Of a DNA stretch of 64,000 nt, positions 6,836 to 37,154 are shown one piece after another; the first letter of the stretch is position 1; each line of letters opens with the position of its first letter. The translations under genes were made by a program, and so were the position numbers. The stretch comes from a virus, in IMG/VR virus record IMGVR_UViG_3300025133_000030, positions 89,804 to 153,803 of that record; one strand, written 5' to 3'. The notes beneath the pieces were generated by a model. The model ran no database searches, was not told where the DNA came from, and saw nothing but the letters and a program-made list of their open reading frames with translations.

Positions 6836-8446
6836 ATGGATATTGTATTTGTTTCTGATTTTTTCTTAAGGCAGGTAACTGGTGGGGCCGAATTGGCCGA
6901 CGATTGTCTTATTAAGTATTTGGTAAATTTTAACAATAATGTTGAACTATGCTCAGCAAGAAACACCAAGTTTCTTTTCGAAACCATCAAATCAGAAAAA
7001 GAATACTATTATATAGTTTCTAATTTTACCAGCCTGTCGGAGGAGTCAAAACAGGCATTAATGACTCAGAAGTATTCTATATACGAACACGATCACAAAT
7101 ACCTACAAGAGCGAAACCCGTCCATATATAAAGATTTTCTGGCTCCTGAAAATCGAATAATAAATAGAAGGTTCTACAAGAACGCTCACCATGTGTTTTG
7201 TCAATCTAAGCTGCATGCCGAGGTTGTTGAAAAGAACTTAAAAATAGAAAATGTCGTAAATCTTGGATGCAGCATTTGGCACGAGCAGCACTTAAATTCA
7301 CTAAGAAACGCTATCGGCACAGAGAAGGTTGCCAAAGCTTGTATTCTTGATTCTGAAAATTCAATAAAAGGAAAAACACAAGCGATAGGTTATTGTAAAG
7401 ACAATAAAGTGGAGTATGATTTAATTGGCTCCAGCAATTTCGACGAGTTCGTCGGCCAAATGGCGAAGTACGAAAGTCTGGTGTTCTTCCCTCAAGTGTT
7501 GGAGAGTTTCTGTAGATTGGCTATAGAAGCTAGGATTTTAGGCTGCAAGCTTGTCACGAATGAATTACTGGGGTGCACTTCTGAAGAATGGTTTCCGGAA
7601 TATAAAGGCGAAGAGCTTCTTGATTTTATACAAAACAAACAGCTTGAAGTGGTATCTAGGTTTGTAGAATTAATCAAAAGTGATGTCGTCCGAAAATCCG
7701 AGGTCGCCGATTTGACAGTTGTGTTGAATTCTTACCGCAGGCCATATAATTTGAAAATGCAGATAGAAGCCATTAATAGACAAACAGTAAGACCTAAACA
7801 AATTTGGCTGTGGGTCAACGCCCATGAGGATAATGAGGGATTTGACTACAGTGAGTTAGGTGTAGATAGGATTTTCAACAACGACTATAATTGGAAGTTT
7901 TACGGTAGGTTTGCTGGAGCGTTGCTGGCAGATACTGAATATTTAGCAATTTTTGATGATGATACGATCCCCGGTGAGCGGTGGCTCGAAAACTGCTTAG
8001 AGACAATGGAAACTAATGAAGGTATTCTTGGTTCAGCCGGCATAATCCTCAACGACAAGTTCTATATTCAGCACGACCGCTGTGGTTGGCCCACACAAAA
8101 CAGTGAAATAACAAGAGTAGACTTGGTAGGCCACGCTTGGTTTTTCAAACGAGAGTGGCTGTCTCACTTGTGGAGAGAAAAACCAACAACTTGGGATAAC
8201 GGCGAAGATATCCAATTCTCTTATTTGGCTCAGAAATACGGAAATATCCAAACCTACTGCCCTCCACACCCACCAGAAGATAAAAGCCTTCATGGATCTG
8301 TTTTGGGCAACGAGTTGGGTATTGATATAAAAGCAACCTCAACTAACCAAGCGATATCACATCAGCGCTTTTTCAACGAAAGAGATATCTGTATTCAGAC
8401 AGCGATCAAAGGTGGTTGGAAAACTGTGAAAGCAATTAAAGCATGA
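6836..8446 (+). CDS. Two-domain glycosyltransferase (GT-B-like + GT2)
   Basis: 536 residues that appear to be two transferases in one chain. Residues 1-280 resemble a GT-B enzyme (N-terminal VFVSDFFLRQVTGGAE, a degenerate C-terminal half with QVLESFCRLAIEA in the place of an EX7E motif). From about residue 290 a GT2/GT-A domain begins (ADLTVVLNSYRRP), with the metal-binding D374-D375-D376 in AIFDDDTIPG and a later WDNGEDIQFSY segment corresponding to the catalytic-base region. It probably adds two sugars or one sugar with an auxiliary GT-B fold. The ATG directly abuts the previous stop. The GT2 call is firm; activity of the N-terminal part is less sure because its first catalytic glutamate is not obvious. 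Confidence 0.82.
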   Translation: MDIVFVSDFFLRQVTGGAELADDCLIKYLVNFNNNVELCSARNTKFLFETIKSEKEYYYIVSNFTSLSEESKQALMTQKYSIYEHDHKYLQERNPSIYKDFLAPENRIINRRFYKNAHHVFCQSKLHAEVVEKNLKIENVVNLGCSIWHEQHLNSLRNAIGTEKVAKACILDSENSIKGKTQAIGYCKDNKVEYDLIGSSNFDEFVGQMAKYESLVFFPQVLESFCRLAIEARILGCKLVTNELLGCTSEEWFPEYKGEELLDFIQNKQLEVVSRFVELIKSDVVRKSEVADLTVVLNSYRRPYNLKMQIEAINRQTVRPKQIWLWVNAHEDNEGFDYSELGVDRIFNNDYNWKFYGRFAGALLADTEYLAIFDDDTIPGERWLENCLETMETNEGILGSAGIILNDKFYIQHDRCGWPTQNSEITRVDLVGHAWFFKREWLSHLWREKPTTWDNGEDIQFSYLAQKYGNIQTYCPPHPPEDKSLHGSVLGNELGIDIKATSTNQAISHQRFFNERDICIQTAIKGGWKTVKAIKA

Positions 8447-8504
8447 CTTTTGATAATTTTAAAAACTTGCACAATGTTTTATTAATCAACAGGAATATAA
8501 AATA

Positions 8505-9494
8505 ATGATTTTATTAAGTTTCGGAACCCGCCCAGAATTTATCAAGATAAAACCGGTAATAGAAAATTTAGAGATACCATACAAATTGTTGTTTACAGGT
8601 CAACATGAAGACTTGCTAAGTAATATAGAGGAAGAAGTGATCAAGCTTACCATCGACTCAGGCCAAAACCGGCTTGACTCTATAGTCTGTTCTATCTTAA
8701 ACAAGGACGATATATTTGAAGGAGTAGATGCAGTAATGGTTCAAGGGGATACAACTTCCGCCTTTTCTGTTGCTCTCGCTGCTTATCATAGGGGAATTAA
8801 AATAATTCACCTTGAAGCTGGGTTGAGATCGTTCAATAACAAGCACCCATTCCCGGAGGAGTTCAATCGAAGATCAATATCGTGCATGACCGATATACAC
8901 CTGTGTCCGACTAAGCATTCTGCGAAAAACTTAAGAGCAGAAAGTATAGATGGAATCATATATAACGTCGGTAACACTGCCTTAGATAATATAAAAGATC
9001 TAAACAAAGTATACGGCCAGAAGATTCTAGTAACATTACATCGACGAGAGAACTTTCCGATAATAGAAGAGTGGTTTACTGAGATTAACCGATTAGCCGA
9101 AGAGCATCCTGAACTGGAATTCATCTTACCGATCCACCCAAACCCCTCTGTCAAGAGGCACGTTGGCCTATTGAAGAGCGTCAAGGTCGTAGAGCCAATG
9201 GCCCACAGGGAGTTTCTGGAGCTTTTGGCCTCGTGTAAATTCGTGATAACTGATAGTGGTGGCCTGCAGGAAGAAAGCTCGTTTCTCAGGAAAAAGTGCA
9301 TAGTGTGTAGAGAGACCACAGAACGTCCAGAGGGCGTACATAAGTTTGCTTGGTTAGCCAATCCTAAAAATCTTGAGAAGGTTTTCAACAGAGTCAATAG
9401 GGACTTTGTTCCTCATTCTGTCTGTCCGTATGGAAACGGAAGGTCTGGACCGAAGATAAACAAAGTTTTGAAAAAGGAATTAGGTTATGAGTAA
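8505..9494 (+). CDS. wecB: UDP-GlcNAc 2-epimerase (WecB/MnaA type)
   Basis: 329 residues with the full family pattern: FGTRPEFIK at the N-terminus, QGDTTSA, LEAGLRS, PEEFNR, GNTALDN, LHRREN, HPNP and DSGGLQEE. WecB interconverts UDP-GlcNAc and UDP-ManNAc in the cytoplasm, feeding ManNAc into surface glycans. It is about 40 residues shorter than typical bacterial enzymes (about 370), mostly through a compact C-terminus, but all conserved blocks are present. AGGAA precedes the ATG. The 58-base gap upstream is one of the few non-coding gaps in the island. It overlaps the next gene by 8 bases. A hydrolysing (NeuC-like) variant cannot be excluded. Confidence 0.9.
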   Translation: MILLSFGTRPEFIKIKPVIENLEIPYKLLFTGQHEDLLSNIEEEVIKLTIDSGQNRLDSIVCSILNKDDIFEGVDAVMVQGDTTSAFSVALAAYHRGIKIIHLEAGLRSFNNKHPFPEEFNRRSISCMTDIHLCPTKHSAKNLRAESIDGIIYNVGNTALDNIKDLNKVYGQKILVTLHRRENFPIIEEWFTEINRLAEEHPELEFILPIHPNPSVKRHVGLLKSVKVVEPMAHREFLELLASCKFVITDSGGLQEESSFLRKKCIVCRETTERPEGVHKFAWLANPKNLEKVFNRVNRDFVPHSVCPYGNGRSGPKINKVLKKELGYE

Positions 9495-10275
9495 GGATTT
9501 TACAGAAGAGTTCGACAAATTGTTGGATAAATTGAAGACTGGTGAAAATTTTGCATTTGTTAGATTCTCTGATGGGGAAATGTTTATAATGCAGAATAAG
9601 CAGGTCACTTTAGCGGAAAACCACTTTGTAACTGGCGACAGAAAAGGCGCAGGCAGATACCCTGCAGAGGAACAAAAGGAGTTTCTACCAGAAAAGCATC
9701 AATTTTATAGAGAAAAATTAATAGATGCTTTAAAATTCTCAAAAGAGAATTATTTGAAGGGAATCTGCTGTAGGCAGGACGTAGGCGAAGAGGCATTTCA
9801 ATGGCAAAAGGATCTCGCCGGCGGAAACGAGGAAAATTTAACTTTTGCAAACCTACTCATAAACAACAACTATAAAAGATTTGTTGAAGAGTTGGTTCCA
9901 CTTTTGAGAGACAGGAAAGTTTTATATGTCGCTAACGAGGCAGCTGACACTGATCGGTTACCATTTGAGGTGAAAGAGGTTTTCTCTATTGGTTCTAATT
10001 GTATGATAGATGACTATCATGTAGTAGAAGAGGTAAAGGAATATATCGAAAAGAACAATATCAAAGACCACGTTATATTGTGTTCCGCGGCCAGTCTCAG
10101 TAACTACATCATTCATGAGTGCTTCAAGGAGAACTCGGAAAACACCTTTCTAGATATAGGCAGTTGTTTAAATCCCTATCTTGGATTAGAGGGGTGGAAA
10201 TATACGAGAGGATACTTGACACACTACTGGTTAAATAGCGGAAGTCCATATGGAACACAAATCGATACATGGTAG
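9487..10275 (+). CDS. GT-D-fold glycosyltransferase (DUF1792-like)
   Basis: 262 residues. The N-terminal FAFVRFSDGE segment (23-31, with D29-G30-E31) matches the DGE motif of the GT-D fold family, where this acidic triad binds the metal and nucleotide sugar. Other segments look like a Rossmann-type sheet (KVLYVANEA, HVILCSAASLSNYII, TFLDIGSCLNPY). GT-D enzymes typically extend glycans on adhesins or capsules using UDP-sugars. The gene starts inside the end of wecB and its last 26 bases overlap the acetyltransferase gene. The family call rests on one motif plus length and context, so confidence is moderate. Confidence 0.65.
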   Translation: MSKDFTEEFDKLLDKLKTGENFAFVRFSDGEMFIMQNKQVTLAENHFVTGDRKGAGRYPAEEQKEFLPEKHQFYREKLIDALKFSKENYLKGICCRQDVGEEAFQWQKDLAGGNEENLTFANLLINNNYKRFVEELVPLLRDRKVLYVANEAADTDRLPFEVKEVFSIGSNCMIDDYHVVEEVKEYIEKNNIKDHVILCSAASLSNYIIHECFKENSENTFLDIGSCLNPYLGLEGWKYTRGYLTHYWLNSGSPYGTQIDTW

Positions 10276-10672
10276 TCGTCTAACTCTCGTACCAAACGAG
10301 GAAAAGTATTACTCATTCATACTAAATCTCAGGAACAACCCTGAAGTAAAACAGGGCTTTATAAATCAAGATCACATAGATATAGAATCTCATTTTACAT
10401 TTATGAAAAACTATGGTAGTATGTATTACATATGCTTGCTCGACGGAACACCTGCTGGGTTTGTCGGTCAAATAGATAAAGATATAAGAATCGCAACACA
10501 CCCGGATTTTCAAGGCCGAGGTGTAGCGAGATTTATGATTGTAGAACTTATGAAGCTCCATCCTGACTCTATTGCTAAAGTAAAAGTGAAAAACCAAGCT
10601 AGCTTAAGGTTGTTTGAATCTTGTGGGTTTAAAAAGAGATATTTTATATTAGAGAAAGACAATGCTTCATAA
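10250..10672 (+). CDS. GNAT-family N-acetyltransferase
   Basis: 140 residues, a minimal GNAT fold. Motif A, which binds the acetyl-CoA pyrophosphate, is visible as HPDFQ88-GRGVA93; the C-terminal KVKNQASLRLFESCGFKK is the usual motif B helix and strand (N-x-x-S-x-x-x-x-x-x-x-G-F). Given the neighbours (GT-D transferase and a DegT aminotransferase), it probably acetylates an amino sugar nucleotide, as in biosynthesis of 3- or 4-acetamido-deoxyhexoses. GGAAG lies before the ATG, which is 26 bases inside the previous gene; the stop lies inside the next one. The substrate is inferred from context. Confidence 0.85.
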   Translation: MEHKSIHGSRLTLVPNEEKYYSFILNLRNNPEVKQGFINQDHIDIESHFTFMKNYGSMYYICLLDGTPAGFVGQIDKDIRIATHPDFQGRGVARFMIVELMKLHPDSIAKVKVKNQASLRLFESCGFKKRYFILEKDNAS

Positions 10673-11282
10673 TCCGTACAAAATAGTCAAAATGTTTGAA
10701 GAGGAAGTAGCTCACTATACTGGTGCACCATATGCTGTCTCTGTTAATAGTTGCACCAACGCGCTGTTTTTGGCCTGTATGTACGAAGAAGTACAAGGAA
10801 AAGAAGTAACAATACCTCAAAGAACATACATCTCAGTTCCACAATCGATAATATTAGCTGGTGGTAATCTCTCTTTTGAAGATTCCGAATGGAGGGGCAT
10901 ATATCAACTGAAGCCGTTTCCCATTTTCGACGCGGCCAAAAGATTCACTTCTAACATGTATATTCCCGGCACTCACATGTGCTTATCCTTTCATATAAAA
11001 AAGCATTTAAAGATAGGCAAAGGTGGAATGATCTTGACAGATAATCCCGAGGCGGTAAAGTGGCTTAAGAAAGCACGATATGAGGGCCGTACAGAGGGTG
11101 TAAGGTACCAAGAGGATAATATTGATATGATGGGGTGGAATATGTATATGACTCCGATACAGGCCGCCCATGGGCTGTCCCTCATGCAAAACTATCCGCA
11201 AGATGTACCTGACATACTAGAAGAGCCGCCATATCCAGATCTAAAAAAATTCCAGCTATTTAAGGACGTACCAGTAAGATGA
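10662..11282 (+). CDS. Short DegT/DnrJ/StrS-type sugar aminotransferase
   Basis: 206 residues with the core features of PLP-dependent sugar aminotransferases: VSVNSCTNALFLA (phosphate-binding loop), PIFDAAKRF with D90 (pairs with the pyridine nitrogen) and SFHIKK with K114 as the Schiff-base lysine, followed by GKGGM. Typical family members are about 370 residues; this one ends soon after the segment MTPIQAAHGLSLMQ and lacks most of the C-terminal domain. The next gene overlaps its stop (ATGA), so the end is real rather than a sequencing artefact in the window. It may be a compact active form or a decayed enzyme. Paired with the preceding GNAT gene, it suggests synthesis of an acetamido-deoxy sugar. 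Confidence 0.72.
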   Translation: MLHNPYKIVKMFEEEVAHYTGAPYAVSVNSCTNALFLACMYEEVQGKEVTIPQRTYISVPQSIILAGGNLSFEDSEWRGIYQLKPFPIFDAAKRFTSNMYIPGTHMCLSFHIKKHLKIGKGGMILTDNPEAVKWLKKARYEGRTEGVRYQEDNIDMMGWNMYMTPIQAAHGLSLMQNYPQDVPDILEEPPYPDLKKFQLFKDVPVR

Positions 11283-12862: not shown

Positions 12863-14500
12863 ATGAGAGCAGCAGAAGTTAAAAAACCAGTAAGAATAGT
12901 CGGTTTTCATTCCGGCCATGATTGTGCATACTGTATATTGGAGGATGGAATTCCTATCATCCATGAAGAATATGAGAGAATCTCAAGAATAAAAGAAGGT
13001 AACGGCGACGCTTTAAAGCTATATTGGGAGAGACAAGAAGATCCTAAAGATATTCATTTTGCGCATGTAATGCACCAACCCGGTGGAGCAAAATCGATAT
13101 ATCCAGAATCATGGAACGCAATGAAGAAAATAGTTGAAACCAGCGGTGGTCTCTATTCTGAGCCGGGGCACCATCAAGCCCACGCTGCCAATGCGTTCTT
13201 TACTAGTGATTTTGACAAGTCTCTAATAATAACTTTTGATGCTGGAGGTTGGGATTATACCCACTACGTTTCTTCAAAACTCTACGGGGCAATTATGGAT
13301 GAGAAAAAGCCAGTAATCGTAACGACCTCAGCTTGGAGAGGGAAAGACAACATAATCTCACCAGTAATTTTGGAGCCGTGGACGGGTGTGAATATAGGGC
13401 ACCTGTGGCACGATATTTTAAATCCCGTGTTTGGATTGTCTAGCGGCTCCCCAAAGGGAAATCAGGCGGGCACGCTCATGGCCATGGCATCGGTTGGAGA
13501 CAAGTCCAAGTATCGCGATTTATTTAGGGACAATTTTCACCCAAATTATATATCGAATCATTTTGATTTCCTAAAGAAAGAACATGAGAATACAGAACAA
13601 GCCAAGTATGATATCGCAGCAGCGCTTCAAGATGTAACAGAAGAGGTAATAAAAACTTTTATATCTGATCATATCTCGCCTGAAGACAAAAATATTTGTT
13701 TGGCAGGTGGGGTTTCTCTGAATTCTGTAGCTATAGGTAAAATATATGAGTGGTTTCCCCAAATTGAAAACATTTTCGTCCCACCAGCGCCATATGACGC
13801 AGGTCTGGCCATCGGAGCAGCACAGTTTATGTACCATCAATTGATGGGATATCCTAGAATAAAGAATGGAGCTAACGCTTCTCCATATTTAGGGAAGACA
13901 TATAGCGAAAAAGATATATTGGAAGCGATAAATGACACGCAAGTAGAAATACAGAGCGTGGACTCCTCCGTAGACGACCTAGTAGAAAAACTTGCAGACG
14001 GGAAAATAGTATCAGTATTTGCCAGTGGATCTGAATCAGGACGCCGAGCATTGGGTAATAGAAGTATTCTAGCAGATCCAAGAAGACCAGACATGAAAGA
14101 TAAGATCAATGAAAAGGTTAAACACCGACAATGGTTCAGGCCATTTGCACCTAGCATTTTAGCTGAAGAGGTTAAGAATTGGTTTGTAAGAGACGTAGAT
14201 AGCCCTTACATGTCTGTCGTTATACCTTTCAAAGAAGACGTTGTAGACAAGGTACCTGCAGTTGTTCATTTGGATGGGACTGGACGCCTACAAACAGTCA
14301 CAGATAAAACTAATCCTTGGTATTATTCTTTCCTGAAAAAGTGGCACGGTCATTCTGGTGTGCCTATAATACTTAATACCAGTTTTAATGATAGGGAGCC
14401 AATTGTCGAAACTCCTCGTAACGCAATTGATTGTTTTCTCAAAACCAACATAGATTATCTATATTTTGTTGATTCTAAATTGATGATATCTAAAAAATAA
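12863..14500 (+). CDS. NodU/TobZ-type carbamoyltransferase
   Basis: 545 residues, the usual length for this family. The N-terminal Kae1-like part begins VGFHSGHDCAYCILEDG and carries the metal-binding GHHQAHAA segment; GSPKGNQAGTLMAMA and LAGGVSLNS follow. The C-terminal part has GRRALGNRSILADPR and the HLDGTGR...LNTSFNDREP segment. Such enzymes use carbamoyl phosphate and ATP to place a carbamoyl group on a sugar hydroxyl (NodU on Nod factors, TobZ on tobramycin). Here the target is probably a sugar of the island's glycan. It starts one base after the fucosyltransferase stop region and ends just before a promoter, so it may close the first transcription unit. Confidence 0.9.
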   Translation: MRAAEVKKPVRIVGFHSGHDCAYCILEDGIPIIHEEYERISRIKEGNGDALKLYWERQEDPKDIHFAHVMHQPGGAKSIYPESWNAMKKIVETSGGLYSEPGHHQAHAANAFFTSDFDKSLIITFDAGGWDYTHYVSSKLYGAIMDEKKPVIVTTSAWRGKDNIISPVILEPWTGVNIGHLWHDILNPVFGLSSGSPKGNQAGTLMAMASVGDKSKYRDLFRDNFHPNYISNHFDFLKKEHENTEQAKYDIAAALQDVTEEVIKTFISDHISPEDKNICLAGGVSLNSVAIGKIYEWFPQIENIFVPPAPYDAGLAIGAAQFMYHQLMGYPRIKNGANASPYLGKTYSEKDILEAINDTQVEIQSVDSSVDDLVEKLADGKIVSVFASGSESGRRALGNRSILADPRRPDMKDKINEKVKHRQWFRPFAPSILAEEVKNWFVRDVDSPYMSVVIPFKEDVVDKVPAVVHLDGTGRLQTVTDKTNPWYYSFLKKWHGHSGVPIILNTSFNDREPIVETPRNAIDCFLKTNIDYLYFVDSKLMISKK

Positions 14501-14553: not shown

Positions 14554-15509
14554 ATGAGTATATTTTGGAAAAATAAAAAAGTATTGGTAACTGGTGCCCA
14601 TGGCTTTGTGGGTAAGAATTTAGTCGAACTTTTACTAGAGAAGAAAAAAGCAGTCGATTTCGAGTTGCTTATGCCGACGCACGAAGAGTTAGATCTTACA
14701 AGAGAGATCGAGGTTAATTCTTATTTTGAATTAAATAAGCCAAACATTGTGTTGCACTTAGCAGGCAAGGTCGGAGGAATTGGAATAAACAAAGCCAAAC
14801 CTGCCGAGTTCTTTTATGATAACATCATGATGGGCACCTTGGTCATGGACCAGTCCTGTAAGCATGGTGTTGAGAAGGTGGTGGCTCTCGCCGCCGGATG
14901 TGGTTACCCAAAGATGCTAGAAGTGCCCTACACAGAAGAGGACTTTTGGCGCGATCTTCCTGATGAAAATTCAATTGGATACTCTATGGCCAAGAAGAAT
15001 TTAATCATACAGTCTTGGACGTATAGAGAGCAATACGGGTTCAATTCAGTTGTATTACTTCCCGCTAATTTATATGGCCCACATGATAATTTTAATTTGG
15101 AGACTTCTCATGTCGTCCCAGCATTAATTAGAAAGTTTGTTGAAGCAGAAGAATCCGGAAATGATGTTGTTAGTGTTTGGGGCACCGGAGAGGCTTCGAG
15201 GGAATTCTTGTATTCTAAAGATACTGCGCAAGCAATATTGGATATCGCTGAGCGGGTTCATGAATCTGGGCCATTTAATTTGGGCACCGGTACAGAGACG
15301 AGTATAAGAGATTTAGTACTCTCAATAAAGAAGGTTACTGGATATACGGGAAATATTGCTTGGGATTCGTCTAGGCCAGACGGCCAGCCCCGGAGATTTT
15401 ACGACATGTCTAAATTTAAAAAAGCCTTGGGGTACGTGCCAGACACTTCCGTAGAGGATGGCCTAACTAAGACCGTAAAGTGGTTTAAGGAAAATAGAGA
15501 TAAAATAAA

Positions 15510-15513
<4 letters not shown>
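14554..15513 (+). CDS. fcl: GDP-L-fucose synthase-like SDR
   Basis: 319 residues, extended short-chain dehydrogenase. NAD(P) loop TGAHGFVG (13-20), family blocks GKVGGIG, NLYGPHDNF and SHVVPALI, and the catalytic pair in GYSMAKK (Y-x3-K). These are typical of GDP-L-fucose synthase, which epimerises and reduces GDP-4-keto-6-deoxymannose. The canonical GSSCIYP segment, which holds the catalytic serine of E. coli Fcl, reads AAGCGYP here; the cysteine is kept but the serine position is changed, so this may belong to a variant subfamily with a different product. First gene after the 14.5-kb promoter. No GDP-mannose 4,6-dehydratase was found in the window to supply its substrate. Confidence 0.82.
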
Positions 15514-17752
<2,239 letters not shown>

Positions 17753-17775
<23 letters not shown>

Positions 17776-18112
17776 GCACGTAGATAAAGGGTGGGGCTAT
17801 GAAAAATGGATAGTAAACAAGCCAGAGTATTGCGGAAAGTTGTTGTTTTTTAGCGCTGGAAAAAAGTGTTCTTGGCATTTTCACAAACTTAAAGATGAAG
17901 TTTTTTATATACAATCTGGAAAGATTTTGGTAAAATATAGTGATCACGACGATATAAGCGAAGCCAAAGAGATAATACTAAATCCGGGAGACAATTTTCA
18001 TGTGTATGTTGGATTGAGACACCAAATGGTTGCGTTAGAAGATACAGAGTTGTTCGAGTTTTCAACACAACATTTTGACGCAGATAGTCACAGAATTCAA
18101 AAGGGGGACTAA
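17753..18112 (+). CDS. Cupin-domain sugar isomerase/epimerase-like protein
   Basis: 119 residues using ATG 17,753, which has AAGGGG seven bases upstream; a TTG 21 bases earlier is less likely. Cupin motif 1 gives metal ligands W-H42-F-H44 and E49, and motif 2 gives H90 in NPGD...HVYVGLRH. The N-terminal KGWGYEKWI segment and size resemble the mannose-6-phosphate isomerase type II-like cupins associated with nucleotide-sugar genes. It may isomerise a sugar phosphate or bind a nucleotide sugar. The gene overlaps the HAD end by 23 bases and is followed directly by a GTG-started unknown gene. Confidence 0.75.
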
Positions 18113-18514
18113 GTGAGAAAATACCTACCAACTCTATCAGAATTGATAGATAGATTATCAATAGCACAACTCAAGGAGGTGTTCATAATAGATCACAAGG
18201 ATGAATACTCCCAAGAGATATCAGACATTTGCCACGACATCGACCTGATATTATCAGACTCAGAGGAAGTCACAGCAGATACTATCCGTGCAATAGTGGT
18301 TTTGTCTCAAATGAACCTGCACATCTGGCATAATGAATCAAATTACAGAAAAGGCATCAAAGATGGCAACAACCTTGAACTAACTCACGGGTTAAATGGA
18401 ATTAGAAATACAGCTAAAAATAAAATTCAAGAAGTTGTCGGAGGGCGAAAAGATTACAAGATTGATTGTCTTGCAGCAGAATTCAAAGATTGGGAAATAA
18501 GTTGGAAAAAATAA
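18113..18514 (+). CDS. Conserved-looking small helical protein, unknown
   Basis: 133 residues, predicted mostly helical and soluble. The opening PTLSELIDRLSIAQLKEVF and the later MNLHIWHNESNYRKG are the most distinctive parts; the latter is reminiscent of DUF4254-type proteins found near heptose genes, but I cannot confirm this. GTG start directly after the cupin stop. Its position between cupin and heptose genes suggests it serves the same pathway. Its end overlaps the Mpo1-like gene. No catalytic motif seen. Confidence 0.6.
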   Translation: MRKYLPTLSELIDRLSIAQLKEVFIIDHKDEYSQEISDICHDIDLILSDSEEVTADTIRAIVVLSQMNLHIWHNESNYRKGIKDGNNLELTHGLNGIRNTAKNKIQEVVGGRKDYKIDCLAAEFKDWEISWKK

Positions 18515-18798
18515 CACTTAAGGAATATTATAAATATTATTTAACCCTTCACGATAATCATATGTGTCGAAGAATGCATTTTATAGGCCAACTTGCAACA
18601 ATAATTTATATAATAGTGGCGATCCCGCAGAGTTTATTTCTGTTGCTTTTAGCTCCTTTTGTAGTTTATCCATTTGCATGGTATGGCCACTTTCGTTATA
18701 TGGGCAATACTCCAGCAGCCTTCACCGACCCAATTAAGGCAAAAATCTGCGATTGGATTATGTTCAGAGACATTATAACAGGAAAGTTGTCAGTATAA
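18502..18798 (+). CDS. Mpo1-like / DUF962 membrane protein
   Basis: About 99 residues from TTG 18,502 (weak GGGAAA upstream); an earlier TTG at 18,466 would add 12 residues. The pattern is that of the Mpo1/DUF962 family: LHDNHMCRRMHFIG (conserved His residues), two hydrophobic membrane segments (IIYIIVAIPQSLFLLLLAPF), then YGHFRYMGNTPAAF with further His. Yeast Mpo1 is an Fe-dependent dioxygenase in alpha-oxidation of 2-hydroxy fatty acids; the bacterial short forms are uncharacterised. In this place it might modify a lipid carrier or lipid A-like acyl chain, which is inference. It is an unexpected gene for a phage. Confidence 0.75.
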   Translation: MEKITLKEYYKYYLTLHDNHMCRRMHFIGQLATIIYIIVAIPQSLFLLLLAPFVVYPFAWYGHFRYMGNTPAAFTDPIKAKICDWIMFRDIITGKLSV

Positions 18799-18799
18799 G

Positions 18800-19543
18800 A
18801 TGAGAGTATTGGTTATAGGCGATAGTTGTCTGGATGTATATAAATATGGAGAGTGCGATAGGTTATGTCCTGCTGCTCCTGTGCCTGTGTTTGTGCCTCT
18901 GAATGAGAAGAGGAATTACGGCATGGCAGGGAATGTCTACAATAACTTAGAATCCTTAGGAGTAGCGTGCGACTTGGTTACAAATCAAGAGCAAGTACTT
19001 AAAACCAGATTTGTCGATATATCATCAAACCACATGATAATGAGGATGGATCTAGGAGAGTCAGAAGTCAAACGAGTCTCAAATCTTCACAGGAGGTCGC
19101 TGAGTACCTTTGGTACAATAATAATATCAGATTATGATAAAGGTTTTTTAACCAGAGACGATATTAAGTTCATATGCGAAAATAACTCAAATGTTTTTAT
19201 TGATACAAAGAAGATATTAGGCAATTGGTGCAGGGATGCTAGGTTTATAAAAATAAACCACCACGAATATAAAAGATCTATTCATTTTATAGAGGAAAAT
19301 GATTGGGTACAAGAAAAGTTAATAATAACAAGAGGCTCTTCCGGTGCGGAACATAGGAATGAAACTTTTCCTGTAGAAAAGGTCGAAATTAAAGACCTTA
19401 CAGGAGCAGGAGACACTTTCCTAGCAGGGTTAGTCTGTCAATTTGTCAAAACAGAAGACATAAGTGGATCTATAATTTTTGCGAATGAGTGTGCAACAAA
19501 AGTAGTACAACAAAAGGGGGTTAACATATGTGGCGCAAAATAG
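18800..19543 (+). CDS. rfaE1: HldE-type heptose kinase domain (PfkB family), short
   Basis: 247 residues, PfkB/ribokinase fold. N-terminal [24 protein letters not shown] and [10 protein letters not shown] match D-glycero-beta-D-manno-heptose-7-phosphate kinase; the C-terminal anion hole and base are in DLTGAGDTF (G202-A-G-D205). It would make heptose 1,7-bisphosphate from heptose-7-phosphate and ATP. The HldE kinase domain normally has about 315 residues, so this copy is compact, with deletions in the central region. It overlaps the adenylyltransferase gene by 16 bases, so the two HldE functions are separate but coupled. Confidence 0.82.
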
Positions 19544-19932
19544 AAGAGAAGAATGTCTGGGTAAACGGATGTTTTGATGTTCTCCATCGCGGCCACATAG
19601 AAATGCTTAAATACGCGAAAAGTCTTGGAACTCATTTGACAGTCGGCATAGACTCTGATAATAGAGTTAAGTTAGCAAAAGGGCCCAACAGACCTTTTAA
19701 TACTGAAGAAGATAGAAAATATATGTTAGAATCTATAAGCTGCGTAAATAAAGTTGTCGTTTTTGACACCGATGAAGAACTTAAGGAAAATATAAGAGAG
19801 AGCAATTCTTCCCTTATGATCGTAGGTTCGGATTGGCAAGGAAAAAAAGTGATAGGCGAAGAACTAGTAGAAAGCGTTTCTTTTTTCGATAGAGTTGGAG
19901 ACTATTCCACTACAAAGATATTAGAATCATGA
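19528..19932 (+). CDS. rfaE2: HldE-type heptose-1-phosphate adenylyltransferase
   Basis: 134 residues, nucleotidyltransferase of the cytidylyltransferase-like fold. The signature [11 protein letters not shown] (13-23; H20-x2-H23) binds the nucleotide triphosphate; GIDSD and a later SST/STTK-like end (YSTTKI) match the ISTT-type motif. This corresponds to the C-terminal domain of HldE (RfaE domain II), forming ADP-heptose from heptose-1-phosphate. AAGGGGG seven bases before the ATG is one of the strongest ribosome sites in the island. Paired with the kinase just upstream. Glycerol-3-phosphate cytidylyltransferase activity is a less likely alternative. Confidence 0.87.
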
Positions 19933-20879
19933 AATTGATAGTAGTAACAGGTTGCTTAGGGTTTATTGGGTCTCAAATCACTAGAGATTGCTTATCTAGG
20001 GGTTGGCGAGTTTATGGCATAGATAAGTTAACATACGCTGCAAACACAACATTATTAGACGAATTTTCGGAAAATGAAAACTTTTCCTTTGAGTTGAAGG
20101 ATATTTGTGAATTAAAAAGCATACCAGATTGCGACTACGTGATCAATACCGCAGCAGAAACCCATGTAGGTAACAGTATTATTGATAGCACTGAGTTCAC
20201 AAAATCCAATGTAGAGGGAACCAGAAATATTCTAGATATAATAAGAGCAAAGCCAAGCAACATATCAGAAAAGCCAGTTTTGTTACATTTTAGCACTGAT
20301 GAGGTATACGGGGACATAACCTCAGGTGCTCACACCGAGAAAGATCTGTTAAATCCAAGTAATCCGTATTCTGCTTCAAAGGCTGCAGCAGATCTCATGA
20401 TAACTGCATGGTCAAGAACATATGGTTTAGATTATGTAATCGTCAGGCCCACAAATAATTATGGGAATTATCAATACCCTGAAAAATTGATCCCTCTATC
20501 TGTTAAACACCTGCAACGGGGGAAAAAAATACAACTTCACGAAGCAGGAGAGCCAGTAAGAAACTGGCTACATGTGGAAGACACGTCAGCAGCTATATTG
20601 CAAATAATAGATAGCAACCAGAGAAACCAAATATTTAATATCTCAGGCGGATTCGAGCAAAAAAATGCAGAAACTGTTAGAAAGATAATTAATTCCTTTT
20701 TTGAGAGTAAAGTCAAATGGAAGCGGTATGTCGACCTAGAGCACACTCGTTTGGGTCAAGACGTGAGGTACTCTTTAGACGATTCTAAAATAAGATCAAT
20801 TGGCTGGTCACCAGTTAAGAAATTCGACCAAGAAATAGTAAAAATAGTTAACTTTTACAAAGAAAATTTCAGATGGTAA
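19929..20879 (+). CDS. rmlB: dTDP-glucose 4,6-dehydratase-like SDR (RmlB type)
   Basis: 316 residues, extended SDR. NAD loop [27 protein letters not shown], the active-site STDEVYGD (Thr-Asp-Glu triad of 4,6-dehydratases), YSASKAA (Y-x3-K) and [18 protein letters not shown]. These are the hallmarks of RmlB, which converts dTDP-glucose to dTDP-4-keto-6-deoxyglucose. The [14 protein letters not shown] segment is close to the family GxGxxxRDWxxVxDH. Substrate could also be another NDP-hexose. It is the last gene of the glycan island; its ATG overlaps the previous TGA. Its product would suit the DegT aminotransferase and GNAT genes. Confidence 0.87.
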
Positions 20880-25165: not shown

Positions 25166-28100
25166 ATGGCAAGAATACCCGGAACAGCAGTAACCCAAAG
25201 ATCCCCCATGACCCAAGCTCAACGCGAGCTTGAGAATTCATACGACTGGAGAACTCTAGAAGAGCCCAAGTACGTCCCGAATGAGGCGGCATACGTCGTT
25301 AATATAAAGACTCCATACGCTTCATCTCGCGGCGGAGGTATCGGAGTTGATGAATCTCAATTAGCTGATATAAAAGCATGGGCCCGAACTCAGGCCATAA
25401 AGAAGATCTTCGACTTTTATGATAAAAAGTGTGTATTCTTGTCTGGTGGCAACCCGGAACCGCACGATTCTTGGAGACAGAGATATCCGGGACTGGGTGA
25501 GGGCATACACGAATCTTGGAGAAACTATCTAATAGAGAGTAATCCTCCAGCCAGTGGAGAGAGATCTGTTGACGGGTTCACGTGGAATTCTAGAGAATTA
25601 GCAGGGATTCTAGGAATTACCTTTGAAGAGATAACTATAGAAGATTATTATAATGAACCATCTTTCGGTGACCCAACTGATTGGTTCATTTCCAGTCGCC
25701 CCGGATCAACAATACAAGTTAAGGTGCTTTTTGCAGCAGACTATGTAGACGCAATTCCTCAAAATATAGAAGGGTACACTGGCTCTGGAGGCCTTTCTCG
25801 TAACGCCAAAAAAAGTCTCATAGCGAAAATGGCAACATACCCTCTCTTCGGGACACCAGAAGAGACAAGAAGAGGAAGAACAATAATAGATCCCGGCTCA
25901 GCCCGGGCAAGAGATTATTCAGACGTCAGAAGAAACGTAGGAACTCTAGATGCTGCGCTTTCAGGCGACGAAACCGCGAAAGACACTATTAGAAAATCAG
26001 CCCAGCGAGGGTTCGAGCAAAGCAGAACAAAGAGGGAGTTCGATTATTATAATAGAAAGTTCAAACTAAAGGGTCCGTATCGCCAAGACCAAGATCCCTT
26101 TAGTGCACCAGATAATCAATCGTTTACTAGCGCTATAGCATCGGCAAGAGACCAAGGCGCTTTGGTCGGGGCGAAAGTTTTAGCTAGAGAGTTAGCAGTA
26201 AACGAAGGAAAGAATTACTTAAAATCTTCAATGAAGCAAGGTGCCAATGCTGCCTATGACAAATCTGCAAGAAAAGCCGCCGTCGCCGCAGCAAAGTCCA
26301 ACAACAAGAAGGGTGAAGATTTAGCTAATATTGATAGTCCAGTCGTGACTAGGAGATATGAAACTAGAAACTTTTTGGAGAAAATTGAATTTGTAGCAAA
26401 GTCTCTAGAGGAATTTGACAAAGATGTTAAAAAATTCAGGGAGAGCGGTGGAGAAATTTACTTCTCGTTTCTTGCACCATTCGAAGGGGAAGCAGAGGAA
26501 ATAAAAAGACAACAAAAAGAAGCTCAAGAGAAAATTTATTCTGATAAGAGAAAAGGTGTTTACGGTACCGGCCCTGAGCGCCATGACAAGGCAGCACGAG
26601 CCGTCGAAAAGTCAGATGAAGAGGTAATCGCTCGTATCCATTCCCAGAGCATGCAGAAATTAAATCTAAAGAGGGAGGCAAATAGCCTAAGGCAAATAGC
26701 GAATAGCCTTGCAGGGTTTTTATCAGACAATACGGAAGTATACAAGAAGGATCACAAGGAAAGGTGGAAAGCTGGCTCTGGCATACCCATGTCGCCGTTT
26801 AATCAGGGTTTCGCAGGGCAAGGTCCATTTTTGGATATCAATTTCCACATATTAAACAAACAAACTGAACCACTGATTGACATTGATTTCCCGACAGGCA
26901 CTGCCCTGACCGCGGCTATGGATTATCATGGCCCCGGAAGACACAAGAAATTCCCAACAGCAGACGCTATAGACGAAGAATTGTCTCAATATATTGAGGA
27001 GGTGGGCATCAGTGGTCGACTCGCCAGTGTTACATATATCGACAAAGGATTTGTCGAGTATCCCTGCCTCTATAATGTCGGTGCATTCATGAAATCGGGA
27101 GGCTTCACTAACCCGGTATCTGTTGGGTATCTTTTCCAACTAGACACGATGTATGATGAGCTTATGGCACTAAACAGTTGCCGCGAGATTGGCGCTGGCA
27201 TACCATCATTTCCGTTCATATTTAGATTTACGTATCCGGGACTTCAAATAAAGCCAGCAAAACCAACGGCTAAAGCTAAATTTAAGCTAGGAAGCTCTGT
27301 AAAGACTGAAGCCGAAGGTATAAAAGAAGACGCAATATATAGCAGCAAGATGGCAAAACGCGATGCTGGCGGCGCTCTCAAGGGTGCTTCGAATTATGTA
27401 GCGCAAAAACTACCGTACGGCAACATATGCACGCTCAAGGAGCTTCATCAAAAATTCCTGAAAAAGTTCAGCCTTAGTAAAATCTTGTGTGATCTTTACG
27501 CCTGTTTTCAGCTTCCCGGAATTCCAGACATAAGCTTGTGGCAGCCGAAGTTCTCGATGCCCAAATTTAAGAAGTCTAAAACCGGCTGGCCAAAGATAAA
27601 TCTCAAAGACGCATTGAAAGAGATGATCGTGAGGTTTCTTTGCGGATTAATTACAGAATTGATAAATGCAGTCAATTCCCCTGATTGCGATGCTTGGAAG
27701 GAATTTGCAGGAGATCTTATTGGAGGCATAATAGAGGATATAAAGGCAGAATTGAATCAGGCACTCGAAAATATAGTTCCGGGCCTAGGTCAAGCAGCTT
27801 TCGGTCTACCGGAACTAGAAAGAGAAGATGCCTGCCCAGATCTTGGAGGTGTTACTCCGACACCCAATAGATTAGGTACGCAAAACCAACAGTTACTGTC
27901 TGCTTCGTCTGTGTCCGACTTGGTTGAAAAGCTTTCTCACGCTCTCCGTCCAAGTGAATTTTGCTCTCTCTTGGCTGGCGAGCCTGACGAAATGACGTTG
28001 CAAGTAGTAAACGTCATGATAGATTCTAGATATCCCGCGCTTAGAACTATTTTTACTACAAATGACATCATAATGAGTGTTTTTTCAGCCCTTGGATCAA

Positions 28101-31100
28101 CTATTATTGGACAAGATCTGTGTCAGTTGATGTTGGGTGCTGTATCAGGACCCAGCGGCCCAGATGCTCTGTGCGATGTGGACGCATTCAGACAAAGAGT
28201 TTTAGCAAACAGAGTTTCGAAAGATGAATTAGACGAACAGGTCGAAGCCGATAAGCGCCGGCGAAATAGGCTCTACAACAAACTCAAGAGACTAGCCGAT
28301 TCACAAAACATTTTATCTGGAGTCGTTCCAGACAACATCGTTGGTGGTACACCAGATTCTGACAACCCTGCTTTGGTGCCGTTGTATGTCCCGGGAAGTA
28401 GAGTCGACGCTGCTGCGGACATAGCAATAAGGACAGTCTTTAATGCAATAACAGCGCCCTATGACGTGGAAGTAAAATCATTCAAAAATCGGATGAGAGG
28501 CCCCGCGCTCGGGCAGGCATCTGCAGGCTCAGCTCCAAGCGAACCCCCAATTGATGCACTTAGATTCAGAGCTTTGATGGACAACCCAGATAGTGTTTTT
28601 TATAACCCGACTGGGATACAGCCAGATTGGTATACCGGGCAAAACTTGATGGACGATACAGAGTTGTTGTCTAGAATGTTCGAAGCATGGCAGAATTATA
28701 ACAAGACTCTGAATCCTGACCCACAAGGGGAGACGGAAGCTGTATTTGCTGAGAAACTCATCATGCTGTTGAGAGATTTTAAGTCAATAGAGCGAGTACA
28801 AACAGAAGATAGGGTCGCCAAATTCAAACTACTTGTAGAACCAGATGAGTCTCCGGATGATGATATGGGTGTTGAAATAGAATATTCTCACAAGCCTAGT
28901 ACTTTTTGTATAACAGACACATACAATTTGAAAGACACTTATTCTGTTTCTATATCTGGCGAAGGCATGCAGCATGAAATATCATTCGATGGCAGCTCAG
29001 AAGTTGATATTGAAGGAGAGGCCATAAGGGAACAGATTTCCGACTACGATATTAAAGAATTTAGAAGAGAAGATGGACTACCCATACAGCAGCAAATATA
29101 TGCATTCTTCGCCGCCGATATTTGGTCCGAATATTTCGGCCATGGATTCAAGTTCAATAATCATAATTCTGGCTACGGTTCTCCATTTTTCTCATACATG
29201 GCCAGCAACCAATTTTACACTGTAATAGAATCAATTTTGCAGACAATAGCAAAAAGGATAGCAGAGTCAGATTTGATAACCAAGGACGAGTTTGGTCGAT
29301 ACGGCCTTGAAAATATTGATCTGAATCCTGTGTTTGATAGCGACGGTTGTCGCCTAGATGGTTTAATTTCCATAAACTCGGCGATCCAATCAGTTAAACA
29401 GCACTTTTATGGCTTAATGGGGCAAGAAGATCAAGATTATGACCCCGGTCCATTACCGCTGTCTATGGCCTCCAAGGGTGTCACATCCATTCTTGTTAGG
29501 TTGATGATTGTTCAAGTTGTCTTAGAGGGTATTGTATCCTTTAAAGAATTTGGAATAAACACATTATATGAAGATGAGATGTTAGTCCACTATATGATGA
29601 AACGCTTCGACACAATGCTGCAAAACTTCGATTCGCCAGCAGACTATACAGGTAATGGCGACTACAGCAATTTCTTTAAGATGTTTCAGCTTCTTTTAAT
29701 TTTTTCTGAGAGGGAGCAAGTCACAACAGACGAAGTGAGCAATCTGTCTGCAGCATTGGTGACCTTATCTGCCCCTTCAACCACCATGGATGAGGAGGAA
29801 TTCGAAGCTCGACATCCTGATCTTTTTAGCGAGATTGAATACCAAGCAGCACTAAAGAAATCTATAATCTCTAACAGTATGCTTGTGGCTGACTCCGTAA
29901 GGACAATAATAGGTGCAGCCACTAGAGACATCTTTCTGGCATATGCCAACAACTTAGACGTCATGGACGTTGCAGCAAGCCGTCATAAAATTGACGGCTG
30001 GGAAGATATATATGGCACCGCCGACACCGGAGGCCGCTTGGGTCATTCATCCCTCGCCGAACTCGAATATAACGACGAATTAAGACACGAAGACGGGTTT
30101 AGACGACATATCGAGCAGGTAATAGGGCCCTTTCCTTACAACCCAGAAGAGAAGAATAGGTTTTATAATCCGGACGGAACGCTAAAGGCAGGCATGGAAT
30201 CTTTCACCGATGGAGGATTCGTGCTGGAAAAATTCATAAAGATCCAAGAAGTAAATTGGAACGACGAAGTATTCAGAGGGTACTCCAATGGAGTCTTGAA
30301 CGCTAGAGATGAGCAAAGAGTTCTAGTTCGACATCCTGAAATCACAGAAGCTCCAGCAGGAAACTTAATCCCCGTTGAGAGCTTCAAGGAATGGGTATTT
30401 GAGATGGTCGGCAGACCACCAACACAAAGAGGGGATGAAGATTGGTTCGGAGCCTATTTCGACTGCTCTAACACATTTTATGGTACAGCGACAGCATGTG
30501 AGGAGAGACTTTCAGATGAAGATGGATACGGACCAAACGATGTCGGATACGATGAAACAAAAGATCTCTATGGATTAACCCCAGCATATCTTCCAAATGG
30601 ACACCATGACTTTGGCGACGACGGTAATGGCCATTACCACGAAAAAACAGATCAAAACGGAGGATCAGATAGTAATATTTTATTTACAACTGGAAAATTG
30701 CCTATACACACAGGGGACACTTGGGGCCCAGACAATGGAATTTCCATAAGAGGTTACGCTACACCACAAGGCCGCTCAGCAACTGACACCGGCCCGAACG
30801 CCATCGACAAGCAGATAGAAAGATATCTTCTGGATCCTGCAAGTTCCCAGAACCCATGGGTACCGCTTAGGTTTGAAAAAATAAGGTTCATGTACACAGA
30901 GGATCAACGAACGTCGGATAAAAATCCATTCTTAAGAACGAAGCTGGATACATTCAGAAGAAGATCTCCATCACTTTCTCCATCTCGATATATCGAGGAT
31001 TTCACCAATGACGGCTTATTGGGCATGTCAACAACTGAGACTGATAATTCTATTGAGCCAAAACATAATGACACTTGTGGCACAAAATATGTAATATATT

Positions 31101-34100
31101 TCGTTGATGCAAATGCTTTATTTGCGGATTTTCCTAGAGATTCTTGGAGAAGAAACCCCGCAACCGGAAGATATGAATTAATAGACCAAGCGTCAGCTGC
31201 GACTTTACCGAAATCACTACAAAGCTTGAACCCAATCGCACCACCAAAGTCACTAATGGCAAACAAGCTTCAAGGTGCTATGGATTATGAAAATTACACC
31301 GACAAGAATAAAGTAAGGCTGACTGTAGTCGATAAAGAGACTTGGACAAGTTTACATAAAATCTGGGCCGGTACAACAAGTCAGAAGCTATCAAGCGGAG
31401 CAACAGTCGAAGACCTAATAACTAGAAGTAGGAATGTGCAGGTATCACGTGATGACGTGGCATCTATAGCTGCAATCAAAGAAAGGGAAGTGTTTTGGGA
31501 AACAACATATAAGACGTGCTTATATAGTACTCCCGAGGAAGAGCACCTACACAAGGGTATAGCAAAATCGATTGGCCAAGACGTAACTGGAAAATCGACC
31601 GTAGATGAAAAAGGCAACATGACGGGTAATAGATTTTCGATATCTGGCCGGCAAATAACTGTGAGAGCAGTTCCTCCTGAAAAAGGCGGCTCATATGCAG
31701 AGCAGCAAGCATACACATACGTATCCAGAGGGCGATACCTAGGCAAAGCCCCAGAAAGAACCGAAACATTCGGTGAAGCAGCAGAAAACTGGTGGGATGA
31801 ATATGGAGATTATGTAACAGCAGTCGGCGCGGGAATAGCAATCGGCGCTTTGGCCGCGGCCACCGGTGGCGCAGGCCTAGGTGCACTAGCTGCAGGTGTT
31901 GGCGGTGCCGGCGGTGCCGGCGGAGGTGCATTAGCTGGCGCAGCAGCAGTTGCTGGTGCCGGTGCCGTCGCTGGTGCTGCCGTCGGCGCTGCCGGCGGCG
32001 CTGTTGCGGCCGGGGTAATGGCTATTGAAGATGCTTTAGAGACCGAAGCAGGAATAACATCTACCGTCAACACTTTGCGAAGCGATGCAATTGCAAGAAG
32101 ACAAGAAGGTTTTCTAAAAGAAGAGAAAAATGCCACGTCTGTATTCCAAGGAAATGGAATCCAAATGGGCGATCTTGTAACTGTTTGGGCCGACGTCGAC
32201 TGGCGCGATTATCTATCGACGCAGGATTCTGGCCGAAGTCGCTTTGGTTGGTTTACTGACAACTGTTATCGTTATGGGTTCGATCGACAAATAGAAGCCA
32301 ACGACCCTACTATCGAAGGGCCATGGAGTCGGAGAAACGATACCAGTTTGCCGTATTGGTATGACCGAGCAGGGGGGTGGTTTTTTACATGCGGTACCGC
32401 AGTTAATTACGCAGTCGAGCCATATTGGACCAGTGATCCGGGCGCCCGTCACCCTGCAGATTTCCAGTCTAATTCCGACTCTCCGTTGAACGTGGCAACT
32501 AATATGTCTGCAGACTTGCCGAATAACCTTGCACTTCGTGATTACTTGGAATCAAATAAAGCCATCGAGCGCCATATGGGGTTAGATTTTGAGTCTGGAT
32601 TGAGCGTCGACGGCAACGCTCATCACACAATGTTTAAGAACTGGCCAGTCTACTCTACTGGTCGACCCGGATATCAATATGTTGGGTGGTTGAGTAGTGA
32701 TATTAGAGTAAATGGCAACACGACCATCACAAATCCCGAGGACCCAATTCTTACAACAGAGATGGAAACCACACCAGCAGAAGACTCAGTGACAACGCTT
32801 AGTTCAATTATTTCAGGAAAATCCACATATATTCACTCAAGTGGGAAATCAATTAGAGACAATAACTTGTCCGCCGGATTTATAAACCTAAATGAATCTT
32901 TGCTTACTGCAGCTGACTATAACAATTGGGCCGACGTAGTTCGGCAAGGCGGAGACCCAACACTAGTTCACACATTAGAGCAGAGCAAAATTGCACTCGA
33001 AAACGAATTGGCAGCACTGCCGGCAATTACTTTAAGGGCAAATAGTCCTGAACTATTAGAGAGGAGGGAGATAGAACAACGCATCAACGACCAGATAGCA
33101 TTTATCGAATCTGTACTAGATCCAATCGGATCCTTTGGCGATATCGGAGCGTACGAGTTTCTGTCTGCAATCCACGGCCGCACCAAATGGTACGGGTCCA
33201 TGCCGGTAAGATTATCGGAAAGGTCAGAATTTCTAGCCTTGGGTATTGATGCGAACGGGGTATATCTTGATCAAAACAACGACAGCAGTAAATTCAACCC
33301 AGACGAAGAAAGACTTTCTTTTGCTTCAACGCGTGGCATGTACACAAAAAGGGAAGCAAATCCATACTTCTGGATGCCCAGTTCCATGTTCTTTTTAGGT
33401 GGACTAGGAAACCAAGGATATAGAGTAGAGAACACCTCTGAGTTCGGAGCAGAATGGCAAGCCGGCGGCGGTGCACGAGACCAGCCTTCTAATGCAGAAG
33501 CTGAAAACCCAGCTTTATGTAGAGAATATTATATACCATCTCCATTTGGCATACACCCTAACTTGGGTTATGATACTCGTGGCACTGGCGGCGTACGCTC
33601 CGGTGATCCGGTTTCATGGAATAGGCTCGGTTATAAAGACAAAATGAGCCTGCATGATATCTACCAGTCCGATTTCCCGGGATCTGACGCGAGTCTTCAC
33701 AACGCCGGCTTCACCTACGCCCGGGATTCGAAAGCGCCGGCATACTACTGCGAGCCGGGACACACTTTAGGCATGGATTTCCCCGGAGAAAAAGATCCAG
33801 ATGAGTTAGGTCAGAATGTTATTAGGGACTTGATGACTTATGGTATTTATAACGACGATAGTAACTTTGATGATATTATAAACTCAATCGCCAACGGTAC
33901 CGGAGAAATATCGTACAGAGACTGGTGGTTCACCAGCGGTAGATTTGCCCATGAACACGATACGCAAGATTACCCCTTGCCGAGAATCACCCGAGAGGAA
34001 GGCGAATCCGATGATGAATTCGAACGAAGAAAAACCTCAGAGCAAACTGCATGGAGATCCGCCCGAAACGCCGACATTAAAAAATGGTTCAGTTCTGGCG

Positions 34101-36690: not shown

Positions 36691-37107
36691 ATGGCATCAG
36701 GAATAGGACCAAAATTACCACTTTTACCAGATGACGTCGACGGCGCATATGCCTTGACAAAAGATCTTAAGGACACAATAAAGCAGAATTTTAGAAACTT
36801 GATGTTGACAATTCCCGGCGAAAGGATAATGCTTCCTGACTTTGGTGTTGGCATAGCTCGATATCTGTTTGAAAATCAGACGAACTCAAGAATGTTGCTG
36901 TCATCAATAACGTCTAGAGTACAGGATCAAACAAAAAGGCATATGCCCTTTATAACTATAAACTCTGTAAATATGAATACGGCTGAAAACGACCCAACGA
37001 TGTCTCCGCATACAATGATACTTTATGTGGAATATTTTATAACTCCTCTTAATCAAGGGGATTCTTTGGAAATAGGTGTCGATTTAACCGGCGAAGTGAT
37101 TTTATAA
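36691..37107 (+). CDS. gp25: Baseplate wedge protein, gp25/GpW-like
   Basis: 138 residues, the normal size. The family core is clear: DLKDTIKQNFRNLMLTIPGERIMLPDFGVGI, read as TIPGER...PDFGVG, around residues 24-56, then a helical segment and a C-terminal beta pair (MILYVEYFITPL). gp25 is an essential wedge component of contractile tails and is shared by myophages and type VI secretion (TssE). AGGAGA precedes the ATG. Immediately followed by the gp6-like gene, the order seen in T4-like genomes. This is one of the firmest markers for a contractile-tailed phage. Confidence 0.92.
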   Translation: MASGIGPKLPLLPDDVDGAYALTKDLKDTIKQNFRNLMLTIPGERIMLPDFGVGIARYLFENQTNSRMLLSSITSRVQDQTKRHMPFITINSVNMNTAENDPTMSPHTMILYVEYFITPLNQGDSLEIGVDLTGEVIL

Positions 37108-37154
37108 TTCTCCAATATTTATTCTTTTTCCTACTTATATAGAGGACATAAATT

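Follow-up and report, generated by a model that had tools for sequence, protein, structure and literature searches.

Two overlapping genes of a virus resemble the kinase and nucleotidyltransferase domains of HldE, and the question raised by this locus is whether the pair merely serves the late steps of ADP-heptose synthesis in the host or belongs to a pathway of the virus itself. The window, i.e., the whole stretch of 64,000 nucleotides analysed here, was taken from a linear and possibly incomplete IMG/VR virus record of 153,803 bases, in which it spans bases 89804-153803. Within one dense run of plus-strand genes (about 14554 to 20879), the kinase ORF (18800-19543, 247 aa) and the nucleotidyltransferase ORF (19528-19932, 134 aa) overlap by 16 nt, and a strong ribosome-binding-like sequence, AAAAGGGGG, is located upstream of the ATG of the second gene. 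The sequence-only reading had described these ORFs as HldE present in two overlapping genes, and this description holds, with the two HldE domains as the best families of the respective proteins. Split HldA and HldC genes are ordinary in bacteria such as Burkholderia, and the kinase and nucleotidyltransferase genes are split in all phage relatives seen in our analysis. We propose that two further enzymes complete the pair to a phage-specific cassette of four, which would supply the surrounding surface-glycan island with a nucleotide-activated heptose or heptose-like sugar. To this reading we would assign a probability of roughly 60%; the functions of all cassette proteins are predictions from sequences and structural models.

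Judged by sequence, predicted fold, and catalytic residues, the kinase is a relative of HldA, namely a compact PfkB-type sugar-1-kinase of the PHROG 8133/T4-GC 305 type. Its best NCBIfam family was TIGR02198 (rfaE_dom_I) with 130 bits, which is far under the equivalog cut-off of 345, and the next unrelated family reached 42 bits; in PHROGs, the protein was assigned to phrog_8133 (1.8e-83). When PDB chains were searched with the kinase profile, HldA (4e84) came first with 97 bits, followed by a chain with 45 bits. Also, the seven best PDB matches of the AlphaFold2 model (pLDDT 95, pTM 0.92) were all HldA of B. cenocepacia (4e84/4e8y; E from 3e-19 to 8e-18), the next entry being at 5e-14. A lack of kinase residues in a structural model had been named beforehand as an argument against the HldE assignment, but the residues are present and the predicted fold is closest to HldA. 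Indeed, K106, R108, R118, D120, SDY, N195, E198, and GAGD of E. coli HldE are all retained, the last as the catalytic GAGD205 of the window kinase. Of the residues that do not vary among cellular HldE kinases, nearly all are kept, including RxxPxxPVP, and the catalytic residues are intact in about 140 distinct phage kinases.

The kinase had been estimated from the start to be about 70 residues short, and it is indeed 60-80 residues shorter than the kinase domains of cellular HldA/HldE. This compact length is a trait of the family: the kinase ORFs of 159 phage relatives are 239-296 aa long, whereas those of 48 cellular relatives have 308 aa or more. Truncation or frameshift was ruled out as the cause, since the reduced length is common to all phage relatives. 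Two parts of E. coli HldE have no counterpart in the aligned kinase, namely roughly one alpha-beta unit that follows the GGAAN helix and a segment that precedes the ATP site. The GGAAN signature itself reads GMAGN in the window, and Met replaces the second Gly in 142 of 142 aligned phage kinases; the sugar substrate may hence differ from that of HldA. In a phylogenetic tree, furthermore, a branch with an SH-aLRT of 94 separates the phage kinases from the cellular ones, and they are not grouped within cellular HldA/HldE. A profile search of genome contigs gave no close cellular source for the kinase: among the matches listed were only ordinary full-length kinases, which were 23-30% identical to the compact one where matched over most of their length.

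Among curated families, the nucleotidyltransferase (T4-GC 304 type; phrog_7878 in PHROGs) is nearest to HldC by sequence. Its best NCBIfam family was TIGR02199 (rfaE_dom_II) with 111 bits against a cut-off of 181.5, and the second-best model, representing the next unrelated family, was that of glycerol-3-phosphate cytidylyltransferase with 76 bits; a protein of the same fold in phage L021 reached 171 bits to TIGR02199. When the window protein alone was compared with the PDB, ECT, HldC, and TagD scored almost equally (69.6, 68.7, and 65.4 bits, respectively). The HxGH motif is present as HRGH, and Asn of TNG (VNG) and Lys of KG (AKG) are kept. In HldC, substrate roles of the motifs NSD, ExTP, and KGG have been predicted by docking (PMC7993394); the window protein has DSD, no ExTP, and VGS at the corresponding sites. 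The Phe (hydrophobic) that stacks on adenine five residues before STT is replaced by Arg (RVGDYSTT). The protein has Asp, Val, Trp, and Arg at the NSD, KGG, Tyr, and Phe positions of HldC, and it departs from HldC in four of the six motifs compared. These replacements extend over 108 distinct phage proteins, of which 103 have Asp for Asn, 100 Val/Ile/Asp/Leu for Lys, 96 Trp for Tyr, and 98 Arg for Phe; the 52 cellular relatives have Asn in 50, Lys in 49, and Tyr in 48 cases, and the Phe position is hydrophobic in most of them.

The Arg thus acquired at the Phe position deserves attention. In TagD, Arg113 of RTEGISTT is essential, and the RTxGISTT motif has been termed unique to cytidylyltransferases (PMC8262930). 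The window protein keeps R and STT of this motif and not T, G, and I, and the Arg, together with Trp of the TagD motif GDDW, is found in about 90% of the phage nucleotidyltransferases. An ADP-linked product is doubtful because the substrate and adenine motifs of HldC are mostly replaced and the cytidylyltransferase Arg is present. The use of ATP is hence not to be assumed, and CTP is plausible from the motifs. In the phylogeny suggested along with the sequence-only reading, the phage nucleotidyltransferases of the Arg type are placed beside, not within, cellular HldC, while those of phages L021, L051, L075, L079, and L088, which have full or near-full HldC motifs, are placed with cellular HldC. 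TagD and ECT fall outside the group of phage proteins and HldC, the basal branches being weak with only three reference sequences.

No GmhA, GmhB, or HldD had been recognised in the sequence-only reading. For two of these enzymes our searches agree, as GmhA was not found in the whole 153.8-kb record (linear and possibly incomplete) and the HldD model gave only generic SDR matches in the same record (91 bits at best, where the cut-off is 274.6). What had been overlooked, however, are an EcbF-type HAD phosphatase and an isomerase-like cupin close to the pair. The HAD protein (17443-17775, plus strand, 110 aa from a GTG start, with an ATG at 17449; T4-GC 306) belongs by similarity to the EcbF/BcbF capsule phosphatase subfamily and apparently not to that of GmhB: TIGR01689 is matched by 22 of 22 family members, PDB 9iqw is hit at 3e-21, and the catalytic set (DxDGT, T, K, and DD) is conserved. 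In six loci (L043, L049, L069, L083, L085, and L235), the HAD is joined to an HldC-fold nucleotidyltransferase in one ORF of about 243-272 aa, which suggests physical coupling of the two steps. In a Prochlorococcus genome, the HAD of the heptose cluster is GmhB-like and the EcbF-type HAD is found beside a NeuB-like gene; the EcbF type is therefore not tied to heptose. With regard to annotation, proteins of this family are registered as “phosphoheptose isomerase” in PHROG 1238 and GenBank, but identity with GmhA is ruled out by the HAD motifs and the EcbF/BcbF similarity; judged by sequence, this label of the phrog_1238/T4-GC 306 HADs in PHROGs, GenBank, and cyanophage records is a misannotation.

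The cupin (17753-18112, plus strand, 119 aa from the ATG; T4-GC 307) is probably a sugar or sugar-phosphate ketol-isomerase, as judged from sequence and predicted fold. Its metal-ligand pattern (HxH, E, and H) is invariant among family members, the Lyx_isomer model is matched by 13 of 22 members, and the neighbours in sequence include D-lyxose, L-ribose, and mannose-6-phosphate isomerases and WbuC. The fold matches of the predicted model (pLDDT 96) include the cupin of CapF, D-lyxose isomerases, KdgF, phosphomannose isomerase, and oxalate decarboxylase. For the most part, then, the relatives by sequence and by fold are sugar isomerases, but since CapF, KdgF, and oxalate decarboxylase are among these matches, an isomerase is one of several options. 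In databases, this cupin is labelled as “cysteine dioxygenase.” When the cassette was sought in bacteria by way of the cupin, 940 genomes sampled from three phyla yielded good cupin matches in only 11. In six cellular contexts of cupin relatives, where domain names were read from the sequence by eye, an HAD phosphatase and an NTP-transferase-like gene adjoin the cupin in three, and an NTP-transferase-like gene alone in two more (these five being L304-L308). The compact kinase and its nucleotidyltransferase partner were not found in these six contexts, apart from one borderline nucleotidyltransferase/kinase-like ORF in L306.

The window thus holds the nucleotidyltransferase, kinase, HAD, and cupin of the cyanophage T4-GC 304-307 families within a few kb, and the same content recurs elsewhere. 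In nine annotated cyanophage genomes (P-TIM68, S-SM2, P-SSM2, S-SSM7, S-CAM3, S-CAM1, Sf-CH8, S-T4, and Sf-FS3), all four genes were present in 9/9 with varying order, and the cupin was the best conserved of the four proteins with 60-69% identity. Independently, we took the best 80 matches of each search in viral loci, near-duplicates included. Among the loci picked by the nucleotidyltransferase alone, the kinase was within 2 kb in 70/80, the HAD and the cupin were within 4 kb in 64/80 and 67/80, respectively, and all four genes were found in 60/80. Among those picked by kinase similarity, all four were found in 33/80, where some contigs are short and others have no partners within 10 kb. Gene order and spacing are shuffled between loci, but the gene content persists. 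Furthermore, the median dN/dS, calculated from 32-45 independent pairs per gene, was 0.106 for the kinase, 0.104 for the transferase, 0.123 for the HAD, and 0.097 for the cupin, with no pair exceeding 0.34. All four genes are under purifying selection, and medians of about 0.10-0.12 indicate that they are working genes.

The accompanying genes differ between loci. Of the 108 loci that could be scored, 54 have an HldD homologue alongside the cassette; such homologues score 198-210 bits to TIGR02197, with the next unrelated family at about 53. The window has instead a NAD(P)-dependent SDR epimerase/dehydratase (16514-17446, plus strand; PF01370) in place of the HldD-like gene. This SDR type occurs in 10 other loci of the 108 and together with the HldD-like gene in 0/108, a mutual exclusion uncorrected for relatedness. 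A constant neighbour in this sub-type (10/10 loci) is a dTDP-glucose 4,6-dehydratase-like SDR, represented in the window at 19929-20879 (plus strand; TIGR01181, 303 bits with a cut-off of 365), and a GDP-L-fucose-synthase-like SDR (14554-15513, plus strand; NF047922, 279 bits with a cut-off of 500) and an SDR epimerase (15510-16517, plus strand; PF01370) are also members. The sub-type further contains a conserved 133-aa protein with no assigned function (18113-18514, plus strand). Its identity reaches 87% in related viral loci whose adjacent kinase has only about 50%, and it had no match among cultured phage records. Recurrent in the same sub-type is an Mpo1-like membrane protein (18466-18798, plus strand; PF06127, 6e-24), embedded here in a cluster of sugar-nucleotide genes. 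A Nol-like carbamoyltransferase (phrog_1601) is located at 12863-14500 of the window, and the same neighbour is seen in P-SSM2, S-SSM7, S-CAM1, S-CAM3, and Sf-FS3. GmhA-like SIS proteins are present in four loci and stand there together with the cupin, which is therefore no simple replacement of GmhA in these loci.

Compared with the ADP-heptose pathway, which consists of GmhA, HldE (or HldA and HldC), GmhB, and HldD, the cassette would follow the same step logic with different parts, and the order proposed here rests on this analogy. The cupin would isomerise a ketose phosphate, e.g., sedoheptulose-7-phosphate, to an aldose phosphate in the step of GmhA, and the compact kinase, with the fold and residues of HldA, would phosphorylate C1 of a sugar that we take by analogy. 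The other phosphate would be taken off by the EcbF-type HAD in the step of GmhB, the family being clear and the substrate presumed, and the HldC-fold nucleotidyltransferase would then add a nucleotide, probably from CTP to judge from its motifs, to the sugar-1-phosphate. The HldD-like epimerase, or another SDR as in the window, might finally tailor the product, and glycosyltransferases of the island would putatively put the sugar on a host surface glycan or a virion protein. Since an isomerase, a C1 kinase, a phosphatase, a nucleotidyltransferase, and an epimerase repeat the logic of ADP-heptose synthesis, we propose an activated heptose or heptose-like sugar as the product, made largely by the cassette itself and mostly without GmhA and GmhB of the host. 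The nucleotide would be CTP, which the motifs favour, or ATP, and the product is quite possibly CDP-linked. A firm assignment to heptose is weakened by the Gly-Gly to Gly-Met change in the kinase, the lack of HldD in the window, and the report that cyanobacterial LPS contains no heptose (PMC4390846), which may not apply to the host of the window phage. On the other side counts the single-cell genome of Prochlorococcus AG-355-I04, in which GmhB-like HAD, HldC-, HldD-, GmhA-, and HldA-like genes form a compact cluster (7500-10948).

It is still to be weighed whether the split HldE provides only the late steps, with GmhA, GmhB, and HldD supplied by the host, and thereby raises the supply of ADP-heptose, as the sequence-only reading had it. 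In support of this idea, the curated models matched best are those of the two HldE domains, the kinase is HldA-like and the transferase nearest to HldC, split HldA/HldC forms exist in bacteria, and no GmhA was found in the record. The reliance on the host for the rest of the pathway is, however, not supported, given the constant phosphatase and isomerase-like cupin and the homologues of HldD (often) and GmhA (occasionally) that are added in relatives; the “ADP” part is made doubtful by the replaced substrate and adenine-stacking residues. The known cyanobacterial hosts of the relatives, furthermore, are those with LPS reported as heptose-free, notwithstanding the full heptose gene set in the one Prochlorococcus genome. 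We therefore consider this explanation unlikely. If the motifs of the transferase are instead given the greatest weight, the cassette could make a CDP-linked polyol or another non-heptose sugar (TagD/EcbF-like, e.g., of the CDP-glycerol type), with the HldA-like kinase shifted to a different sugar. The phage transferase shares with TagD and ECT the HxGH motif as well as the Arg and the STT of RTxGISTT, and it has the Trp of the GDDW motif known from TagD; the second-best model, the nearly equal PDB scores of the window protein alone, the capsule type of the HAD, and the Met in all phage kinases point in the same direction. Nonetheless, the transferase is closer to HldC by curated models (111 vs 76 bits) and lies outside the TagD/ECT branch, though weakly so, while nearly all HldE-specific residues including RxxPxxPVP are kept in the kinase, and the cassette of relatives comes with homologues of HldD and GmhA. 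A non-heptose product is accordingly quite improbable in our estimation.

The cassette might even be non-functional cargo derived from hosts. Sullivan et al. (2010) found that T4-GCs 304, 305, 307, and 308 co-occur in three cyanophages and suggested a functional linkage, but left open whether these genes are functional or “stuffer DNA” (PMC3037559), and they do sit in variable islands. The strong purifying selection and the recurrent four-gene content argue that the cassette is functional rather than filler, and with the intact catalytic residues of the kinases, the cargo explanation is already contradicted for the family and hardly tenable. Returning to the proposed route to an activated heptose or heptose-like sugar, its most specific version would be a virus-borne CDP-heptose(-like) pathway, in which an HldA-type kinase and an HldC-type transferase re-tuned to CTP would work with a cupin isomerase and an EcbF-type phosphatase in the places of GmhA and GmhB; this version is tentative, and we lean against rather than toward it. 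To our knowledge, no CDP-heptose pathway of such build has been described. The two established heptose routes give ADP- and GDP-heptose (PMC4691232).

The “LPS” genes of T4-GC 304-308 in the cyanophages P-SSM2, S-SM2, and S-SSM7 (PMC3037559) comprise the same four families in a cluster, often beside the Nol-like carbamoyltransferase, but these phages carry the HldD-like epimerase (T4-GC 308), whereas the window has another SDR, the 133-aa protein, and the Mpo1-like gene. The lineage is also different: by its baseplate protein, which is nearest to those of Microcystis phage Mel-JY01 (33%) and Flavobacterium phage immuto (31%), the window phage is not close to Kyanoviridae, and no photosystem reaction-centre gene was found in its record. 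Next to the baseplate genes, two ORFs stand out by their very large size (3836 aa at 25166-36676 and 3350 aa at 41245-51297 of the window), and both are probably structural. Elsewhere, the record contains a GroEL-like chaperonin (bases 36751-38322; phrog_5725) and a 332-aa PurA/PurZ-like adenylosuccinate synthase (bases 78354-79352; 260-281 bits to PurA models and 140 bits to PurZ) alongside phage ThyX and an IMP dehydrogenase/GMP reductase-like protein. Auxiliary genes of the rfaE type have likewise been reported from pelagimyophages, and LPS-related ones from cyanomyophages, with glycosyltransferases and often in a hypervariable tail-fibre region (PMC7029224); in the passages considered, rfaE alone is named, and the partner genes and the motif change are features added here. 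While the co-occurrence in cyanophages has been known since 2010, the wide recurrence together with the HAD, the result on selection, the pathway reading, the corrected labels, and the motif switch are added by this study.

Genes of the cassette type have a wide distribution among marine phages. The labels given to them, at times wrong, are “LPS,” “ADP-heptose synthase,” “phosphoheptose isomerase,” and “cysteine dioxygenase.” The analysis of their motifs narrows the candidates to a short list of substrates and nucleotides that is open to direct assay. If the product is a new nucleotide-sugar, phages would reshape the surface glycans of their hosts, or decorate themselves, with a chemistry of their own.
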